Both the position numbers and the translations under genes were made by a program. This document shows positions 32,521-56,111 of a stretch of 64,000 bases of DNA, in pieces. Source of the stretch: Gemmatimonadota bacterium (GTDB lineage Bacteria > Gemmatimonadota > Gemmatimonadetes > Gemmatimonadales > Gemmatimonadaceae); the NCBI GenBank assembly GCA_003134685.1, contig PLCA01000002.1, positions 397,966 through 461,965 on the forward strand, written 5' to 3'. The notes below the pieces were generated by a model. It was not told the origin of the DNA, did not search any database, and worked only from the letters and a program-made list of their open reading frames with translations. Position 1 is the first letter of the stretch. Every line of letters starts with the position of its first letter.

Positions 32521-33001
32521 GACCGGCACGTGATCCATGATCGGTCGAGGCGGAGATCATCAAGGAATCCTGCCCGCGGAACGAGACGCAGACGGGGAAC
32601 GTTGATGTCCCGTTCAAGAACATCCGGGTATCGCTCCCACAGTACACCATCGTGTGGCCCAGTCCCTCACGGGAAGCGGTCCGAATCAAGCAGTCATCCA
32701 ACGCAATCATTAAGCGAACCGACGGTTGCAAGTCGAGCAACATCAGAATCGGGAATGCGAGACGGACTGGGTGCCTGTGCTGAGGACAGCGGTTCTTGCG
32801 CTCCAGGCACGGATCGCTGCTCGGTAAAGCTACCGCCGTCATGCCGACGCCGACGTGGATCTGTTCCAGATACGCGATGGCGTCACGAACGCTCGCGGCG
32901 GGATAGCGACAACTCCGCTCCTCACGCACTTCAACCGACGGCACGGTCGTGCTTACATTCAGGGACAGCCCTGACGTGGGAGTTCCGCGCAGTCGTCGCA
33001 C
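32450..33001 (-). pseudogene. Chimeric ORF: inverted copy of the 5' end of the 33399 gene fused to unrelated sequence
   Basis: An open frame of 183 codons from GTG 33001. Residues corresponding to EVREERSCRYPAASVRDA through GMTAV duplicate the N-terminus of the wHTH gene at 33399 with a single Arg-to-Cys change; the underlying DNA (32832-32932) matches 33417-33517 inverted at 100 of 101 positions. The ATG of the original is ACG here. After the repeat the frame enters unrelated sequence and ends inside attC 3. It is best read as a recombination remnant, although the downstream part (about LQPSVRLMIALDD to the stop) could be a cassette gene that lost its own start. Confidence 0.6.
32832..32932 (-). 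repeat. 101-bp inverted repeat, left copy
   Basis: The reverse complement of 33417-33517 with one mismatch (C/T in GAGT[C/T]GTCG). Weaker similarity continues about 15-20 bp further toward the start codon side. The 484 bp between the copies contain the whole upstream region of the three-gene operon. Confidence 0.95.
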
Positions 33002-33072
33002 GGACAGTGGGGTTCCTCAGCGCGGTCAGGCACGCTTCGGCATTCACTGTAGTCACCGCGCACTATAGCCGC

Positions 33073-33108
33073 TCCTAATTATGAAAAGCGTTCAATTATT
33101 CGTTAGGC
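33073..33108 (-). repeat. Degenerate, minimal attC-like hairpin
   Basis: Minus-strand reading begins with a good R'' box (GCCTAAC) and GAATAATTGAACGC, resembling L'', but the second half is reduced to TCATAATTAGGAG, with an R'-like ATTAGG lacking GCGTT. CCTAA and TTAGG ends pair. At 36 bp it is shorter than usual attC sites, so it may be an eroded cassette boundary. Confidence 0.4.
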
Positions 33109-33398
33109 CGTCCATATCGACACATTGGCCGTCAACAGCGCGGCTCCCATTGCAGTGGTTAACTCCTTAATAATCAATAAGATATAACTAGTGGCGTCCA
33201 CGGAGAAGGCTAATACATGGCTCTGGCAGTCTGATCATGGCGCACAGTCGTTTTGTTCCAATCTATGGGCGCCGATGCTGAGCTATAGAACAATGGGTTC
33301 GCTAGATCGCCCGCATCGCTATGCGAGCAAATAAAGCGGCAGGCCTTGACAAACTAGCCTTGGAACGCGACCTTCTAGGTCCACCCACGGGAGTGAGA
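33109..33398 (+). promoter_or_regulatory. Upstream region and candidate promoter of the three-gene cassette operon
   Basis: This 290-bp stretch is visibly more AT-rich than its neighbours and has no gene. A candidate sigma70-type promoter is TTAACT (33159-33164), 18 bases, TATAAC (33183-33188). A second TTGACA at 33346 lacks a clear -10 partner. GGGAG precedes ATG 33399. Because the operon runs against the attC orientation it cannot use an integron Pc promoter and needs its own. Confidence 0.45.
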
Positions 33399-34160
33399 AT
33401 GACCGGGCCGTCTAGTGAAGTGCGTGAGGAGCGGAGTCGTCGCTATCCCGCCGCGAGCGTTCGTGACGCCATCGCGTATCTGGAACAGATCCACGTCGGC
33501 GTCGGCATGACGGCGGTGTCTCGGGAGACAATGGTTCAGGCGCTCGGGCATTCTAGCGTGAATGGCGCCTCGAAGGCGAAGCTGGCGGTTCTCCGCCATT
33601 TCGGGCTGCTCGACCGTGAGGGTGAGCGCTACCGCATTTCGGAGTTAGGAAAGCGTGTAGTTATTCCTAGGTCCGATGCCGAGCGGGACGCGGCCACCGT
33701 CGATGCCGTGAGGCAGCCCGCTCTGTTTCAGGAGTTGGGGGCTACGTTCGATCAACAGCGCCTTCCGGCAATGCTTGCGAATGTCATTGCGCGTGACTTC
33801 GGCGTGACTGCTCAGGCGAGCGCGGAAGTCGCTGATGTGTTTACTCGAAGTGCTGAGCAAGCCGGACTACTCATCGATGGCGTATTGAGGTGGACCGGAG
33901 AGCGCGACCAGGCTGCTGGGACGGACACTTCACCTGAGCGTCTCGAACGTCATCAGAGCACGGCACAGTTGAGCTCTGAGCGTGCCCTTTCCGCGGCCGA
34001 CGGGACAGAGTCCTATACCATCCCGCTCGATAGCCGGGGCAAAAAGGCGCTCATCCACATTCCGGTTCCGACTGCGTCGAAGGACCTCGACCGGATCGCA
34101 GCGTGGGTCAGCTACATGCGCAGCGTGGTTTCAGACGACGCTGAACCCTCGACCGAGTGA
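33399..34160 (+). CDS. wHTH protein A of a three-gene cassette operon (candidate defence system)
   Basis: A 253-residue protein. Residues 17-85 look like a winged helix (YPAASVRDAIAYLEQIHVGVG; ALGHSSVNGASKAKLAVLRHFGLLDREGERYRISELG). A helical middle follows (about 90-165, ending VFTRSAEQAGLL), then a polar Ser/Asp-rich linker and a short beta-rich C-terminal segment (SYTIPLDSRGKKALIHIPVP). Protein C has the same order of segments, so A and C are probable paralogues. ATG 33399 has GGGAG 6 bases upstream. The gene for B follows after 13 bp. Protein fold resembles DUF5343-like wHTH proteins; function unknown. Its 5' end is duplicated in inverted orientation at 32832-32932. Confidence 0.75.
   Translation: MTGPSSEVREERSRRYPAASVRDAIAYLEQIHVGVGMTAVSRETMVQALGHSSVNGASKAKLAVLRHFGLLDREGERYRISELGKRVVIPRSDAERDAATVDAVRQPALFQELGATFDQQRLPAMLANVIARDFGVTAQASAEVADVFTRSAEQAGLLIDGVLRWTGERDQAAGTDTSPERLERHQSTAQLSSERALSAADGTESYTIPLDSRGKKALIHIPVPTASKDLDRIAAWVSYMRSVVSDDAEPSTE
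33417..33517 (+). repeat. 101-bp inverted repeat, right copy (inside protein A gene)
   Basis: Encodes EVREERSRRYPAASVRDA through GMTAV of protein A. It matches the left copy (32832-32932, minus strand) at 100 of 101 bases, in the same reading frame relative to the two open frames. Confidence 0.95.
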
Positions 34161-49954: not shown

Positions 49955-50385
49955 CTCGGAAGAATCCGAAAAGAAAGCGTACAAAGGCGCTGAGTTCATC
50001 GTCGGTGGAGAGCCGCGACGCAAAGCCGCACGAGCATGGTACTTCGCTCGAGGAGTTCCGTCACTTCCGGGAGCGACTGAACGCTGAAATCCTCGGCGAG
50101 GGAAACCTCGTCATCAACCGATTCTTCGCGCTCGACACTCGTACCTACGAAGCGGGCGCGCTCGACGTCAGGACGAAGGAGCTGCTCGGCCTCGTCGCAT
50201 CCCTGGTGCCGAGGTGTGATGACTGCGTGACGTATCATCTCACTCGCTGCGCCGAGGAGCGCGTCTCGCGTGCCGAGATCTTCGAGTCGCTCTCTATCGG
50301 TCTCATCGTTGGCGGGTCTATTGTGATTCCGCATCTTCGGCGCGCTGTTGATAGGTGGTCTGAGCTCGAGCGTCTCGCGCGCTAG
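49942..50385 (+). CDS. Carboxymuconolactone decarboxylase/AhpD-like protein
   Basis: A 147-residue protein with a basic, disordered N-terminus (about 45 residues) and a CMD/AhpD helical domain: ALDVRTKELLGLVASLVPRCDDCVTYHLTRCAEERVSRAEIFESLSIGLIVGGSIVIPHLRRA. The CxxC plus His signature (CDDCVTYHL) is that of AhpD-type disulfide reductases or peroxidases rather than true decarboxylases. GTG 49942 overlaps the TPR stop. A likely role is antioxidant defence (inference). Confidence 0.87.
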   Translation: MEFLTRKNPKRKRTKALSSSSVESRDAKPHEHGTSLEEFRHFRERLNAEILGEGNLVINRFFALDTRTYEAGALDVRTKELLGLVASLVPRCDDCVTYHLTRCAEERVSRAEIFESLSIGLIVGGSIVIPHLRRAVDRWSELERLAR

Positions 50386-50439
50386 CCTTGTGCAGCGCGC
50401 GGAATTCTTGGATTGTCGCGCGCGGTCGGCGCGGGGTGT

Positions 50440-50909
50440 CCTCTTCGGGAGCTCTCGCCTGTAGCTTCGTCGTGCGGCTCGCTACACCGCGCCGCCTTGC
50501 AGCGGCGCTGGCTCCGGCCGCTCCCTCAGAGGACACCCCTTGCCTCCTGCCTGAGACTTGTAACAGCACGTGCACCAGAAGTTTCGCGCGCGAGCACTCT
50601 CAGCTCAGAAGCCATTCTCCGCGCGCCTAAGCGCTCGGACGCGGCGGAGCCGCGAGGCCCGCGACCGAAAAGCGCGACACGTACATCTCTGACGCTACCC
50701 GCAAGGCCCCGGCGCGCGAGCGCGCCGCGGTACTATCGCACACGCGGCGCGAAGCGCCGCGTGCAGTTACGAAACCCGTTGGGAAGGAGGGTGAGGGTGT
50801 CCTCTGAGGGAGCGGCCGGAGCCAGCGCCGCTGCAAGGCGGCGCGGTGTAGCGAGCCGCAAGGCGAAGCGCGGGTGCCCGCTTACGGGCAGGAAGAGCTC
50901 CCGAAGAGG
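50440..50909. repeat. Giant palindromic intergenic element A
   Basis: Most of the gap between the CMD and deacetylase genes is an imperfect palindrome. Perfect 66-bp arms lie at 50473-50538 and 50795-50860 (TGCGGCTCGCTACACCGCGC and so on), and outer 16-bp arms at 50440-50455 and 50894-50909 (CCTCTTCGGGAGCTCT). The 256-bp centre holds further GC hairpins (for example CGCGGCGCGAAGCGCCGCG near 50744). No gene is supported. It is related to element B at 54312-54741. Confidence 0.9.
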
Positions 50910-50955
50910 ATATCCTCGCCCGACTGACCGGCGATGGTATCAGTAACTGCGCGAC

Positions 50956-52143
50956 TTATTTCTTCGCGCCAGCTGTTGCCGCAGTAGCTGCCGACGGCTT
51001 CGCGACGACTGCTGGATTGCCGTCGGAGATGTACGCGTTGCCCGATTTCTCGAGCTTGTCGATCATGGCCCCGATCGCGTTCCCGATCACCTGAATGCGC
51101 GGAGTCATGCCGGGGTTGAACGCCGGATCGTACGGGCTCCGCATCGGCCCACCCGCTACCTCGAACACGACCGGCCACTCGTAGCTCACCGTCTTGCCGG
51201 TCTTGGGATTCGTCCACGATCCCTTGCTCGCCAGCGCGCGATTCTTCGGCCACAACCCCTGCGGCAGCGCCATCGATCTGATCTTGTAGCCCGGCACCGC
51301 TGAATCGATCGCCAGTGCGTTGCGCGCGATCTGCTCCTGAACGATCGCATCGGAGAACTTGCTCAGCTGCGCGTGCCACACCGTGTGATCGCACAGCTCG
51401 AACCCGTTGTCGGCGAGCCACTTCACCTTCCGGAATCTCCAGTTCGATTTCTGCCCCTGAATTCCGCGATCGCCGAAGAAGTTGTGTCCCGCGTTCGCCC
51501 CGTTGAGAAGACAGTACACGGACTTGTTATTCCAGTCGGGATGCGTCTTCTTGAAATCGAGCCAGATCCCCATTCCGCTGGTCGGATCTATCTCGAGCGT
51601 CCCGTTGTTGTCGATGTAGCGGAACTGCTCGGGAGAGGCGTCATCAAAAACAAAGACCACCGGTGACAATCCCCTCGGAAGATTCAGCTTCTTGTCGAGC
51701 ACATCCGACATGTTCACCGGCCGGTAACCGCGACTGTAAAGAAGCTCCAGATCCTTCCTGAACTGGCCGCGCTCGCGCGCGTAATCACTATTGTGGTCGG
51801 TGATCAAGTGATATTCCAGCACCATTATTCGTCCCATCTCATTGGGAACGCGATTCGGGTTTGCTGTACCTGATTGCGTAGCGCCTGAAGCTGGTGCGGC
51901 GGCCAGGCCCGCCGTATTGGCAGCGGAACCAGCCGCTGGACTTTCCGTAGTGGAAACTGGACCCGTTGCGGCGCGTGAGGTGTCTGATGTACCAGCATTC
52001 TGAGCCGGCACGCTCGCGACGGTAGTCGAGACGGCGCCATTACTGTTCGTGGCGGACGGTGAGCTCGCGGCGGAAGCCGAATTCGCACCGACCTTGCAAG
52101 CGGACACAACGAAAACGAAAGAGACGAGGACAGAACGATACAT
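50956..52143 (-). CDS. Polysaccharide deacetylase-like lipoprotein
   Basis: A 395-residue lipoprotein (MYRSVLVSFVFVVSACKVG, lipobox VVSAC) with a 75-residue Ser/Thr/Ala-rich linker followed by a NodB-type domain: MVLEYHLI, VVFVFDDASPEQ (the catalytic/metal Asp pair) and ELCDHTVWHAQLSKFSD (H-x3-H metal site). Such enzymes deacetylate peptidoglycan or surface polysaccharide. It starts only 15 bp from the divergent PBP1A gene, so their promoters must overlap each other's coding regions; a joint cell-wall role is likely. Confidence 0.82.
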   Translation of the reverse strand: MYRSVLVSFVFVVSACKVGANSASAASSPSATNSNGAVSTTVASVPAQNAGTSDTSRAATGPVSTTESPAAGSAANTAGLAAAPASGATQSGTANPNRVPNEMGRIMVLEYHLITDHNSDYARERGQFRKDLELLYSRGYRPVNMSDVLDKKLNLPRGLSPVVFVFDDASPEQFRYIDNNGTLEIDPTSGMGIWLDFKKTHPDWNNKSVYCLLNGANAGHNFFGDRGIQGQKSNWRFRKVKWLADNGFELCDHTVWHAQLSKFSDAIVQEQIARNALAIDSAVPGYKIRSMALPQGLWPKNRALASKGSWTNPKTGKTVSYEWPVVFEVAGGPMRSPYDPAFNPGMTPRIQVIGNAIGAMIDKLEKSGNAYISDGNPAVVAKPSAATAATAGAKK

Positions 52144-52158
52144 TTTTCCCGAGTACTG

Positions 52159-54261
52159 TTGGAGATAAAGGCGAGACGCCGCGCGATCCTGCTCGGCCTG
52201 TTCGCTACATGTATTCTAGCGGTTTACTTCACGGATGTGTGGCTGGTGACGTGCGGCTTCGACGGCTGCCCGACGCCTCGCGCCATCCAGAACTTCGAGC
52301 CCGATCAGGGTGGCCGCATCCTGGACCGCTACAACCGCCTCATCGGGCGGCTGCAGCTCGTCCGGCGCATCAACGTTCCTCTGAAATCTGTCCCTGTGTT
52401 CGTTCAGCAGGCCTTCATCGCGACCGAAGACCGCCGGTTCTACCAGCACGGCGGACTCGACTGGCGCGGATTCGCTCGCGCTCTCATCACGAATCTGAAA
52501 GCCGGCCGCACGCGCGAAGGATTCAGCACCATCACGATGCAGGTGGCGCGCAACACCTTCGCGGTTCGAAAGTATCCGCCCCGGTCACTCCGGCAGAAGC
52601 TGGCGGAGCTCCGGCTGTCGCGATTGATCGAGGGTTCTCTCACCAAGCAGCAGATCCTCGAGCTGTACTTCAACGTCATCTACATGGGCAATGGCGTGTA
52701 CGGCGTAGAGGCAGCAAGCAGAGATCTTTTTGGCCGAAGCGTCAATCAGCTGACCCTGCCTCAGGCCGCGATGCTGGCCGCGCTTCCGAAAGCTCCGTCG
52801 GCATACACTCCGCGCCGCCACCCGGACCGCGCGCTCAATCGGCGCAATCTCGTGCTGAGCCTCATGGTCAAGGAAGGATACGTCTCGGCGAACAGACTGC
52901 CGGGACTCCAGGCGCAGCCGCTCCGAATCGCGCGCGACGAGTATAGGCCGCAGGACCCGAACGATTCATATGCGCTCGACGCGGTGCGCGCGAAAGTCGA
53001 TTCGATCATCCAGAGCGGAGGTGCCGATGTCGTCGATCTCACCGTTCGGACAACACTGGATCGCAACGCCCAGATCGCCGCCGATCGCGCGGTTCGACGC
53101 CAGGCCGCCTCGATCCAGTCGGAGACGGGTCGTCGCGCTCTGATACAGGGCGCGATGGTAGGCATCGATCCGCGGACCGGCGAAATCCGCGCACTCAGCG
53201 GGGGGCGACAGTACGAGCGCGGCAACTTCAACCGCGCGCTGCTCGCGCATCGCCAGCCCGGCTCCGCGTTCAAGCCGTTCGTGTATGCCGCGGCGATGGC
53301 CGCGGGATATACGCCTTCGTCCGAAGTGGATGACGATCCCATCGACGTCATTCAGGGACGCGACGTCTGGTCGCCGTCCAACTACGGTGACGAATATTTT
53401 GGACGAATCACCTTCCGCAAGGCGCTGATCAAATCGGCCAACGCCGCCACGGTGCGCGTCAGTCAGGCGGTTGGCATTCCGCGAATTATCGAGACCGCGC
53501 ACAAAAACGGAATCGTCAGCCCGCTCCCCAACGTCCCATCGATGGCGCTCGGCTCTGTCGAAGTGACGCCGATCGAGCTCGTGGCCGCGTACGCGCCGTT
53601 TGCGAATGGTGGACATAAGGTCACAGCGTGGCTCGTGCGAAGCATCTCCACCTCTGACGACGTTCCCATCTGGATTGCTCCGGAACCCGAGCGGAATCCC
53701 ATCCAGGTGATGGATCCTCGCGATGCCTATCAGGTGACGTCGATGCTGCAGTCGGTCGTCGACTACGGCACCGGCAAGGTCGTGCGCGATGATGGGGTGA
53801 AAGGACTCGTTGCGGGCAAAACCGGAACGACGAACAGCGGCACGGATGTCTGGTTCGTCGGCTACACGCCGACGATCGTCGCGGCGTTCTGGTTCGGCTT
53901 CGACAATCCCGCCCCAATCAGCGGCGACGCATCGGGCGGCAGGCTCGCCGCGCCCGCGTGGGTCGACTTCTACCAGAATGGCTGGCGCGAGTACGCATCA
54001 CCGAATGCATGGAACCCACCGGTCGGAATGGTGGAGCGCATCATCGACCCGACGACCGGATACCTGGCGACCGAATGGTGCCCGGTGTCGCGCAACGAGT
54101 ACTACAAGCCCGAGCGGGAGCTACCGACGATCCCGTGCCCCGAGCACGGCCCTGACACAGGCAACGATCAGAACAACGGAGACTGGCAGAACCAGCGCGA
54201 CTGGTCGAACGATTTCGGCAAGAAAATCAGCAAAGCGCTCGGCAAGATTTTCAAATTCTGA
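52159..54261 (+). CDS. Bifunctional penicillin-binding protein 1A
   Basis: A 700-residue class A PBP. Membrane anchor at residues 9-29; GT51 glycosyltransferase with catalytic Glu90 in IATEDRRFYQHGG and GFSTITMQVARN; transpeptidase with PGSAFKPFVY (Ser-x-x-Lys near 368), SANAATVRVSQ (SxN) and VAGKTGTTNSGTDVWFVGYTP (KTG near 554). It polymerises and crosslinks peptidoglycan. TTG 52159 is the only plausible start before the anchor. The tail is Asn/Asp/Trp-rich. It is divergent from the deacetylase gene and flanked by the two giant palindromes. Confidence 0.93.
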   Translation: MEIKARRRAILLGLFATCILAVYFTDVWLVTCGFDGCPTPRAIQNFEPDQGGRILDRYNRLIGRLQLVRRINVPLKSVPVFVQQAFIATEDRRFYQHGGLDWRGFARALITNLKAGRTREGFSTITMQVARNTFAVRKYPPRSLRQKLAELRLSRLIEGSLTKQQILELYFNVIYMGNGVYGVEAASRDLFGRSVNQLTLPQAAMLAALPKAPSAYTPRRHPDRALNRRNLVLSLMVKEGYVSANRLPGLQAQPLRIARDEYRPQDPNDSYALDAVRAKVDSIIQSGGADVVDLTVRTTLDRNAQIAADRAVRRQAASIQSETGRRALIQGAMVGIDPRTGEIRALSGGRQYERGNFNRALLAHRQPGSAFKPFVYAAAMAAGYTPSSEVDDDPIDVIQGRDVWSPSNYGDEYFGRITFRKALIKSANAATVRVSQAVGIPRIIETAHKNGIVSPLPNVPSMALGSVEVTPIELVAAYAPFANGGHKVTAWLVRSISTSDDVPIWIAPEPERNPIQVMDPRDAYQVTSMLQSVVDYGTGKVVRDDGVKGLVAGKTGTTNSGTDVWFVGYTPTIVAAFWFGFDNPAPISGDASGGRLAAPAWVDFYQNGWREYASPNAWNPPVGMVERIIDPTTGYLATEWCPVSRNEYYKPERELPTIPCPEHGPDTGNDQNNGDWQNQRDWSNDFGKKISKALGKIFKF

Positions 54262-54311
54262 CCCCAGCTTTGAGCGGTGTGGTTCGAGAAATCTCGGTTT
54301 GGGTCGAGTCG

Positions 54312-54741
54312 GTGGATCCCCTTCGGCACCCTGCCCGCTAACGCGGGCACCCGCGCTCGCTTGGTCGGAGCCCCTAACTACGCTCCCTCGCGCTCGCTTT
54401 GCAAAGCGGCCTACGAGGACCCACCGCCTCTCCCGCACGGATCTCTGCGATCCAAGAAGCCCGTGCAACGAGTGACTCAGACTGAATTCTCGCCCGGGCT
54501 TTGCTCGCGCGTGTTTGACTTCTTGCTCGGAGATCGTGCCGGAAGACTGCGCTGGCACTGGAGGGCGCTGCGCCGCCCGCGCGCTTCGCGCGCGTGCAGT
54601 TACGGAGCCGTACGGGAGAGGCGAGCTGTCCTCGTAGGCGCTTCCCAAAACGAGCGCGAGGAGGAGACCCGCGACTGAGCGGAGCGAAGGAGCGCAGTTA
54701 GGGGCTCCGACCAAGCGAGTGTAGCGCCGAAGAGGATACCT
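54312..54741. repeat. Giant palindromic intergenic element B
   Basis: Arms CTCGCTTGGTCGGAGCCCCT...at 54356-54379 pair perfectly with 54696-54719; outer GGATCCCCTTCGGC pairs with GCCGAAGAGGATACC; a further inner pair involves GGCCTACGAGGAC and GTCCTCGTAGGCG. It shares with element A (in inverted orientation) the edge TATCCTCTTCGG, the CCTGCCCG...CGGGCACCCG hairpin and the internal GTGCAGTTACG next to a GC-rich hairpin. No gene is supported in 54262-54772. Confidence 0.85.
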
Positions 54742-54772
54742 CGCCTCGACCCGAGCAGAGATCTCTAGGAAA

Positions 54773-56029
54773 CTAAACGACGCCGAGAAAGTCTCGGGGC
54801 GACGCAGCGAACCCAGGGAAGATCCGGTCGAGTGCGCGGGCTCCGAGATGGTGTTGCACGACCTCAGCGAAGACCGAACGGAAGTCAGTCGTGAGTGCGA
54901 GGTCGCGGCCCTCATAAAGCTGCTCCTGCTCGAGGCCCGGCCACTTCCCGTGCACTTTGCCGCCCTTCACCTGCCCGCCGATCACGAATAGCGCGCCGGC
55001 GTGACCGTGATCCGTCCCGCGATTTCCGTTCTCCCTCGCCATCCGTCCGAACTCCGACATCGTGAGAATCACGACATCGTCCATCCTGTCGCCAAGGTCG
55101 GTGACGAGCGCCGCGATCGATCTGGAGAAATCGTCGAGCCGCTGCGCCAACTGACCCGTCGCCCCGCCCTGATTCACGTGCGTGTCCCAGCCGCCGACAT
55201 CGGCGAACGCGATCTCGAGTCCGACGTTGGCCTTGATCAGCTGCGCGATCTGCAGCAGCCGCTGGCCGAACTGCGATCTCGGGTACTCGGCGTTGTTCTG
55301 CGGCAGATATTTCTGTGGGTTCGCCGAGCGCAGCATCTTGACCGCGTCGAACATCTCGGCGCCTGTTCCGTGCACGAGATCCGCGGATCCCGTGCGGTAC
55401 AATGCTTCGAGACGCTCCGCCGAGCTGCCGGTGGCGCGCACGCTGAATTCGTCGAGGCTGTTCATCGCGACAGTCGCGCTCGGCCCTTCGAGAATCCGCG
55501 GCGTCTGCGGCGTCAGTGATACGGCGCGGAAGGGAGTCTTGGCGAGGTTGCACTCGTCGCACGTCCCCTTCACGGCGAGATAGCGATTGAGCCAGCCGTC
55601 CGCCGTTCCCTTGTTGTCGGGCGTGCCCGTCTCCATGTAGTCCTGCGCATCGAAGTGCGAGCGCGTGGTGCTCGGACTGCCCACGGCGTGAATCGGCGCG
55701 AGCATCTTCCGATCGTATAGAGGCTTGAGCGGCGCGAGCGCGGGGTGCAGTCCAAAGAATCCGTCGAGATCGATCGCTCCGCCCTCGGCGCTCCGCGACG
55801 GCTGTGGGATCGCAATCGAGGGGCGCATCCCATAGTACGCCCGCTCGCCGTGGGGGACGACGATGTTGAGCGCATCGGCGGCTCCGCGCTGGAAGAGACA
55901 GATCAGCACCTTTCCCTTGGGCGCGTTCACCAGCTCCATCCCAAACGCTGTGCGCCGGAGAAAGCTCGGGCTCAATCCCATCGTCACGAGCGCCAGTGCG
56001 CCCGACTTCATGAATGCTCTGCGTTCCAT
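54773..56029 (-). CDS. DUF1501 family protein, Tat-exported
   Basis: A 418-residue protein with a twin-arginine-type signal (MERRAFMKSGALALVTMGLS) and the DUF1501 fold related to alkaline phosphatase/sulfatase superfamily enzymes: ICLFQRGAADALNIVVPHGE, FFGLHPALAPLKPLYD, TRSHFDAQDYMETG, GGWDTHVNQGGATGQLA, VVILTMSEFGRMARENGNRGTDHGHAG. These genes always accompany DUF1800 genes, as here (67 bp downstream of one). Function unresolved; a role in processing an exported substrate is suspected. ATG 56029 places the signal at the N-terminus. Confidence 0.9.
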   Translation of the reverse strand: MERRAFMKSGALALVTMGLSPSFLRRTAFGMELVNAPKGKVLICLFQRGAADALNIVVPHGERAYYGMRPSIAIPQPSRSAEGGAIDLDGFFGLHPALAPLKPLYDRKMLAPIHAVGSPSTTRSHFDAQDYMETGTPDNKGTADGWLNRYLAVKGTCDECNLAKTPFRAVSLTPQTPRILEGPSATVAMNSLDEFSVRATGSSAERLEALYRTGSADLVHGTGAEMFDAVKMLRSANPQKYLPQNNAEYPRSQFGQRLLQIAQLIKANVGLEIAFADVGGWDTHVNQGGATGQLAQRLDDFSRSIAALVTDLGDRMDDVVILTMSEFGRMARENGNRGTDHGHAGALFVIGGQVKGGKVHGKWPGLEQEQLYEGRDLALTTDFRSVFAEVVQHHLGARALDRIFPGFAASPRDFLGVV

Positions 56030-56111
56030 TTCAACTACCCCCAATTGCCAACTGAGAACTCATACCCGTGCTGATCTGCGCTCCACGCGCCAGCGAAGCG
56101 TGCGAAGCTTG

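Follow-up and report, generated by a model that had tools for sequence, protein, structure and literature searches.

Inverted pairs of large hairpins behind genes of one Gemmatimonadaceae genus occupy largely inherited sites and differ in their tips

The window, a stretch of 64,000 nucleotides of Gemmatimonadaceae DNA, contains two giant palindromes, elements A and B, which we tentatively interpret as members of an extragenic BIME/REPIN-like element family of one Gemmatimonadaceae genus. A full element of this family is an inverted pair of large hairpin units, usually situated close behind a stop codon, and each unit is a hairpin in which a common stem base (TGTCCTC / GAGGACA) holds a tip of about 85 to 115 nt. 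Stems and tips covary, folding is asymmetric between the strands, and at fixed sites whole tips have been swapped or lost. The interpretation is a joint one that would also include former spread of the pairs, gene conversion between copies, and an RNA cap at transcript ends.

The presence of giant palindromes flanking the deacetylase-PBP1A gene pair had been proposed in a sequence-only reading, and both are real. A has exact arms of 66 bp (50473-50538 / 50795-50860), as proposed, and exact outer arms (50439-50455 / 50894-50910) of 17 bp rather than 16. The exact 24-bp arms of B (54356-54379 / 54696-54719) were also found, nested in 36-nt arms of 94% identity, but its outer arms, which had been taken to match, pair imperfectly. 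The RNA folds of A and B lie far below those of dinucleotide shuffles (z of −19 and −14), and none of 100 shuffles equaled either. All the edge and internal motifs thought to be common to the two were recovered: GTGCAGTTACG, the edge motif TATCCTCTTCGG, and the CCTGCCCG hairpin. The suggestion that A is inverted relative to B, however, does not simply hold, because GTGCAGTTACG is present in both on the plus strand, as a direct repeat; each element is inverted-symmetric within itself. A and B have stems and edges in common and unrelated tips, A being alpha/alpha and B beta/beta (mean identity between alpha and beta tips, 52%), and it is because both tips of an element are of one class that each pair reads as a giant palindrome. 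The exact pattern of the CCTGCCCG hairpin occurs genome-wide only in A and B, so it was rejected as an independent repeat; hairpins resembling it occur in some tips of congeners. The parts of both elements and the neighboring genes are listed in Table 1.

Table 1. Parts of elements A and B and the adjacent genes, in window coordinates
Feature	Position	Strand	Remarks
Carboxymuconolactone decarboxylase family (PF02627), upstream neighbor	50005..50385	+	stops ~40 nt before A
A left unit, outer stem-base strand, ends TGTCCTC	50424..50443	.	
A left tip, class alpha	50444..50528	-	minus, the spacer-to-outside strand, folds better
A spacer, 276 nt	50529..50804	.	inner stem strands of both units at its ends; contains GTGCAGTTACG
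A right tip, class alpha	50805..50905	+	mini-hairpin inside
Mini-hairpin GGGTGCCCGC..GGGCAGG within A right tip	50872..50892	+	C1:448837-448857
A right unit, outer stem-base strand, starts GAGGATA	50906..50933	.	
Polysaccharide deacetylase (PF01522), convergent neighbor of A	50956..52143	-	
PBP1A-like transglycosylase/transpeptidase	52159..54261	+	stops ~39 nt before B
B left unit, outer stem-base strand	54300..54321	.	
B left tip, class beta	54322..54414	-	typed over 54354-54394; altered by mini-hairpin
Mini-hairpin GGGTGCCCGC..GGGCAGG within B left tip	54330..54352	-	C1:452295-452317
B spacer, 219 nt	54415..54633	.	inner stem strands at its ends; contains GTGCAGTTACG
B right tip, class beta	54634..54731	+	
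B right unit, outer stem-base strand	54732..54760	.	
DUF1501 protein (PF07394), convergent neighbor of B	54773..56044	-	

Elsewhere in the window, the sole exact inverted pair of at least 14 bp within 700 bp lies at 32832-33517. It is an inverted repeat of about 102 bp (32832-32933 / 33416-33517), exact save for a break near 32911, which by sequence does not belong to the A/B family; one arm resembles an inverted copy of the gene start near 33400.

The sequence-only reading had allowed that A and B might be unique to the window, and many relatives were found in the genome. The host genome (G000; 3.63 Mb in 16 contigs) was queried with both elements and with one of class gamma, and the 23 places obtained were fetched and read. 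Eighteen contain elements (two in L068), one contains a remnant (L076, C1 at ~94.3 kb), and four (L077, L079, L080, and L104) proved on reading to hold none. Including A and B, there are 21 readable elements with 40 units, 19 elements having two units and two (L074 and L075) having one; this count covers the copies within reach of the search, which strongly diverged ones would escape. Five elements (L074, L067, L078, L071, and L063) lie within ~35 kb of contig C5 (~408.6-444.0 kb).

Based on sequence, the tips fall into three common classes, alpha (~85 nt), beta (~98 nt), and gamma (~112 nt), and at least four rare types are present in relatives: delta (G014), epsilon (G005), zeta (G009), and eta (G016). 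Tips of one class are on average 71-88% identical, those of different classes 50-56%. All 48 typed pairs, the eta pair being left out, are inverted around the spacer with the identical outer side outward. Of the two-unit elements of the host, nine (seven besides A and B) have both tips of one class, and the other 10 combine two classes. The spacers between tips measure 131 to 276 nt and have recurrent short motifs at their edges; the outer ends form inverted repeats, like the terminal inverted repeats of a MITE, and by eye neither foot of the hairpins, outer or inner, shows a constant tag such as the GTAG or CGTC of REP sequences. General homogenization between the two arms of an element was considered, with a mixed result: the left and right tips of A are 81% identical, lower than in all 11 comparisons of its left tip with alpha tips elsewhere, and in B, L073, and L103 the partner tip is likewise not the nearest relative. 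For L071, L072, and L078 the partner tip is among the closest, equaled by one, three, and two of 16 other tips, respectively, so that arm correction, although not general, may have acted on gamma pairs.

All 21 elements lie outside the genes called with a purpose-made simple codon-usage caller, with L102 overlapping one called end by 6 nt. Eleven are located between convergent genes, eight between tandem genes, and two between divergent genes. The convergent arrangement accounts for 11 of the 51 adjacent gene pairs in the window, A and B counted, and its excess among the elements gave binomial P values of 0.002 to 0.008 across three backgrounds. In seven of the eight tandem cases the element is closer to the stop codon than to the next start; the eighth, L074, is about midway.

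The positions of the elements are largely inherited across the genus. We compared the flanks of 51 loci from seven congeners, drawn from hit lists, with those of the element loci in the host, and 43 of them proved to be host element sites with flank blocks ~71 to 97% identical, a proportion that describes the sampled loci and not the inherited share of all elements. By congener, the numbers were 17/17 (G014), 9/9 (G002), 4/4 (G016), 5/6 (G009), 4/7 (G017), 3/6 (G005), and 1/2 (G008). The 17 loci of G014 represent 16 sites, one being split by a contig end, and two of the 17 hold an end fragment only; two of the 43 correspond to the remnant site L076. Several draft contigs end in elements (the end of G014:C128 and the starts of G002:C107, G014:C165, and G014:C200), and copy numbers in the congener drafts are therefore probably too low.

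In a collection of named genomes, 13 stretches contain an exact 20-mer of the beta tip, 11 of them titled Gemmatimonadaceae, Gemmatimonadales, or Gemmatimonadetes and two 'unidentified bacterium isolate 29'; the 20-mer occurs in none of the viral contigs, which gives no link to viruses. DNA searches with A matched 8 of 18 congeners and, weakly, 1 of 42 other genomes, and those with a beta/gamma element matched 10 of the 18 congeners. A covariance model of the alpha unit matched 8 of 148 family genomes, namely 7 of the 14 listed members of the genus and 1 of 134 others (marginal, E of 0.005). In Rfam, the A-B region gave two matches far below the cutoff (E of 5.1 and 6.2), of which one, RtT, fell on the right unit of B; the elements of 15 further loci gave no match. 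No description of such a paired-hairpin family turned up in searches of an open-access library.

At these inherited sites the tips are not constant. Between the host and G014, 29 tips at 15 sites were scored: 17 were kept (83-98% identical over their length), four swapped, five lost, two truncated, and one unreadable. The swaps in G014 are alpha to delta in the left tip of A, alpha to gamma in its right tip, alpha to gamma in the left tip of L064, and beta to alpha in L075. The losses concern L062 right, L067 left, L070 left, L102 left, and L103 right, the truncations L061 right and L078 left, and L064 right is masked by N. In the alignments the breakpoints of the replacement fall at TGTCCTC and GAGGACA, with the stem and the flanks still matching; in L075 the right outer flank appears to be partly exchanged too, which fits gene conversion. 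Other congeners differ in the same manner. Site L078 is gamma/gamma in the host and beta/beta in G002, G016, and G017, and site L102 is gamma/gamma in the host and beta/beta in G009. Site A carries an epsilon and a beta tip in G005 and a collapsed hairpin of class alpha in G009. At site B, the right unit is missing from G009, a mini-hairpin is present in G010, a scar is left in G002, and there is no element in G014. Between PBP1A and DUF1501 at the last of these (L106), a short open frame starting ATGTCATCG is present.

An element in G005 (L191), sitting behind a normal intrinsic terminator, has counterparts with different tips in G010 and G008; the site is without an element in G000, G014, G002, G009, G016, and G011, has other sequence in G017, and gave no match in G004. 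This is best read as a probable insertion in the ancestor of the G005/G010/G008 clade, loss in the other genomes being the less likely alternative. At site L071, G014 retains only the joined outer edges, and G009 and G010 have one unit; the G014 locus was rejected as an empty site and is a deletion scar instead. A check for the target-site duplications expected of a MITE met a scar at L071 in G014 and, at L191, ends that could not be fixed. Some further sites are more complex. About 1 kb of extra gene-like sequence is present at the L071 site in G016 (L216) and G011 (L221), flanked by element outer edges in G016. L068 of the host (C11, ~148.3-150 kb) has the order element, gene, element, and L187 of G017 has one element between the outer flanks of these two, as if a gene had come or gone along with a second element.

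The structure of the units is supported by covariation. At stem positions 7-15, the strands of the 40 host units match above reshuffled partners with z values of 3.5 to 6.9, and adding 68 congener units raised these to 6 to 13; both sets are inflated by kinship among the units. The host units were placed without a choice of register, two being shifted by one base, whereas the congener part is biased because its register was chosen to maximize stem matches. The outer and inner stem strands are imperfect complements: position 17 is paired in only 20% of the 40 units, with one mismatch dominant, and by eye it is part of one or two 2×2 loops, GA opposite GA on the strand reading from the spacer to the outside. 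In the tips, RNAalifold found double changes preserving base pairing at 21 of 43 pairs for alpha, 6 of 13 for beta, and 9 of 24 for gamma, from alignments in which 27 of 30 alpha, 42 of 45 beta, and 30 of 30 gamma units were kept; the six units removed by hand include the right unit of A, and typed tips covering <72% of the reference had been removed earlier.

Folding is also strand specific. The spacer-to-outside strand folds on average 6.5 kcal/mol lower than its complement, against +1.0 expected from shuffles; it is lower in 29 and below the shuffled expectation in 35 of the 39 units compared, one unit containing N being left out. By class, the mean difference is −9.2 (alpha), −15.2 (beta), and only −0.3 (gamma); taken by themselves, gamma tips favor the opposite strand by 4.6. 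The asymmetry of gamma units holds only relative to composition. At stem positions 2-15, A-C on the complement (G-U on the favored strand) outnumbers the reverse 85:23 (32:9 in the host), or 60:23 (18:9) when the dominant position 6 is excluded; outside the stem the wobble counts are mixed or reversed (positions 20 and 26). One alpha loop is GNRA (GCAA, GCGA, GAAA, or GTAA) in 23 of 27 units. Covariation, strand-specific folding, and GNRA loops lend partial support to the earlier proposal of large structured RNAs, as far as predicted folds can indicate.

According to the interpretation that we prefer, the pairs would once have spread as non-autonomous mobile DNA through an activity for which no enzyme was found, and would now be mostly inherited. 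Tips would be exchanged by ectopic gene conversion between copies with common stem bases and short flanks, which we infer to be the most likely process behind the exchange. Read-through transcripts would fold the spacer-to-outside unit into a stable RNA, protecting the 3′ end, and the folded unit would keep convergent genes apart; the inverted arrangement of the pair places one unit in this orientation on each strand. The most likely effect of the elements would be a structured RNA where read-through transcripts end.

Several observations count against the RNA part of this model. The strand asymmetry and GNRA loops could also fit folded single-stranded DNA, and for gamma tips by themselves the opposite strand is the better-folding one. 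Divergent genes flank two of the elements, and L074, a single unit, is antisense to the genes on both sides. The losses in G014 have no preference of orientation: L070 keeps the wrong unit and L062 the right one. By eye, none of the 40 outer flanks shows, after the hairpin, a T run of the kind that makes an intrinsic terminator, and at the L191 site a terminator is there already. Finally, the tips are 91.8% conserved, compared with 87.0% for fourfold sites and 94.2% for sequence left intergenic by the caller, a class that probably contains missed genes; as the tips are no better conserved than this class, we make no claim of constraint on them.

A possible but somewhat less probable explanation is that the elements are selfish miniatures, broadly REPINs or MITEs, that have no role for the host and in which the hairpin serves as the single-stranded DNA substrate of a trans-acting transposase, since lost or unrecognized, and the places behind genes are tolerated insertions. 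The BIME-like pairing of imperfect strand-specific hairpins agrees with this explanation, and so does the asymmetry with DNA energies, by which the spacer-to-outside strand is lower in 37 of 39 units. Units are often lost, one element has collapsed completely to a scar, and L191 is a probable clade-specific gain. Against it, Y1_Tnp (PF01797) gave no match at E of 0.001 in G000, G002, G005, G009, G014, and G017; within the genus it was found in G006, G015, and G016, of which G016 has elements, and 9 of the 10 congeners with beta/gamma-element matches are without it, G016 alone having both. Mobilization by a RAYT, as in REPINs, was accordingly rejected for the host, which has no PF01797 match; the element-bearing G016 has one. 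Moreover, most sampled sites are common to several species, and insertion of a whole element does not explain the exchange of a tip on a kept stem. The MITE-like family proposed in the sequence-only reading is thus borne out in its dispersal, with 21 readable elements and one site that looks like a clade-specific gain, and is opposed by the 43 of 51 congener loci at host sites and by a host without a Y1_Tnp gene.

It is also conceivable, although we think it unlikely, that the elements represent a new class, a 'socket and plug', in which a covarying stem base at an inherited site takes alternative RNA folds of ~100 nt that are exchanged as cassettes between sites, perhaps by an active and dedicated process. 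If so, the genome would redistribute a small set of RNA folds over fixed gene 3′ ends. 

Palindromic repeats are usually taken for mobile DNA or short stabilizers of mRNA, and here the sites are largely inherited across species and the tips replaced wholesale on the same stem, which separates the site from its cargo. This provides a natural experiment, orthologous genes with differing RNA folds behind them, by which it becomes testable whether such repeats affect the preceding genes and how tips with only short common ends are swapped.

That the spacers carry promoters driving two outward small RNAs, one per unit and antisense to the 3′ ends of convergent neighbors, appears improbable: the better-folding strand of both units does point outward from the spacer, and short motifs recur at the spacer edges, but no promoter-like motif was seen by eye in the aligned edges, spacer length varies widely, and single units exist. 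Recombination between A and B that would flip the 3.8-kb cell-wall segment, an idea of the sequence-only reading to which inverted stretches common to A and B (25 nt at most, 84% identity) lend something, is very improbable, given the unrelated tips of A and B and the orientation of the window in all 16 congener loci holding both genes of a pair (11/11 for PBP1A and DUF1501, which are convergent, and 5/5 for the deacetylase with the upstream neighbor of A).

Several known systems come close to the BIME/REPIN-like family that we favor. Fungal mitochondria contain double-hairpin elements with two hairpins per mobile element; compared by description, these differ in residing in organelle genomes, and we know of no tip exchange on inherited sites among organelle hairpin repeats. 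REP/BIME sequences are described as pairs of imperfect, inversely oriented hairpins joined by a linker that varies, extragenic and dispersed, with conserved stem mismatches, strand specific, mostly behind genes and often convergent ones, and with loop variants on a common stem (PMC8266576, PMC3733652). The present family resembles them in its extragenic inverted pairs with a linker (48/48 pairs) and in the conserved mismatch at position 17 of a strand-specific hairpin. It differs in having units of ~130-150 nt or more (tips alone, ~85-115 nt) rather than 20-40 nt, ~20 elements rather than hundreds, exchange of whole folds of ~100 nt rather than small loop variants, and a host without a Y1 transposase. 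REPINs are described as having an inverted doublet for their unit, singlets that appear to be remnants, and compensatory changes (PMC3116915), and doublets, singlets, and compensatory changes are all present here; however, the doublets are ~450-600 bp instead of the ~100 described there, the host has no RAYT-type gene, and the sites are largely common across the genus. The CGTC REP families are described as inverted dimers behind genes with no dedicated transposase (PMC3733652), as is also the case here; their stems of 8-9 bp and loops of 4-5 nt are far smaller than those of this family. Because the size and transposase features fail, we do not file the family as a member of BIMEs or REPINs; by analogy, its architecture works most like that of a BIME or REPIN several times larger.
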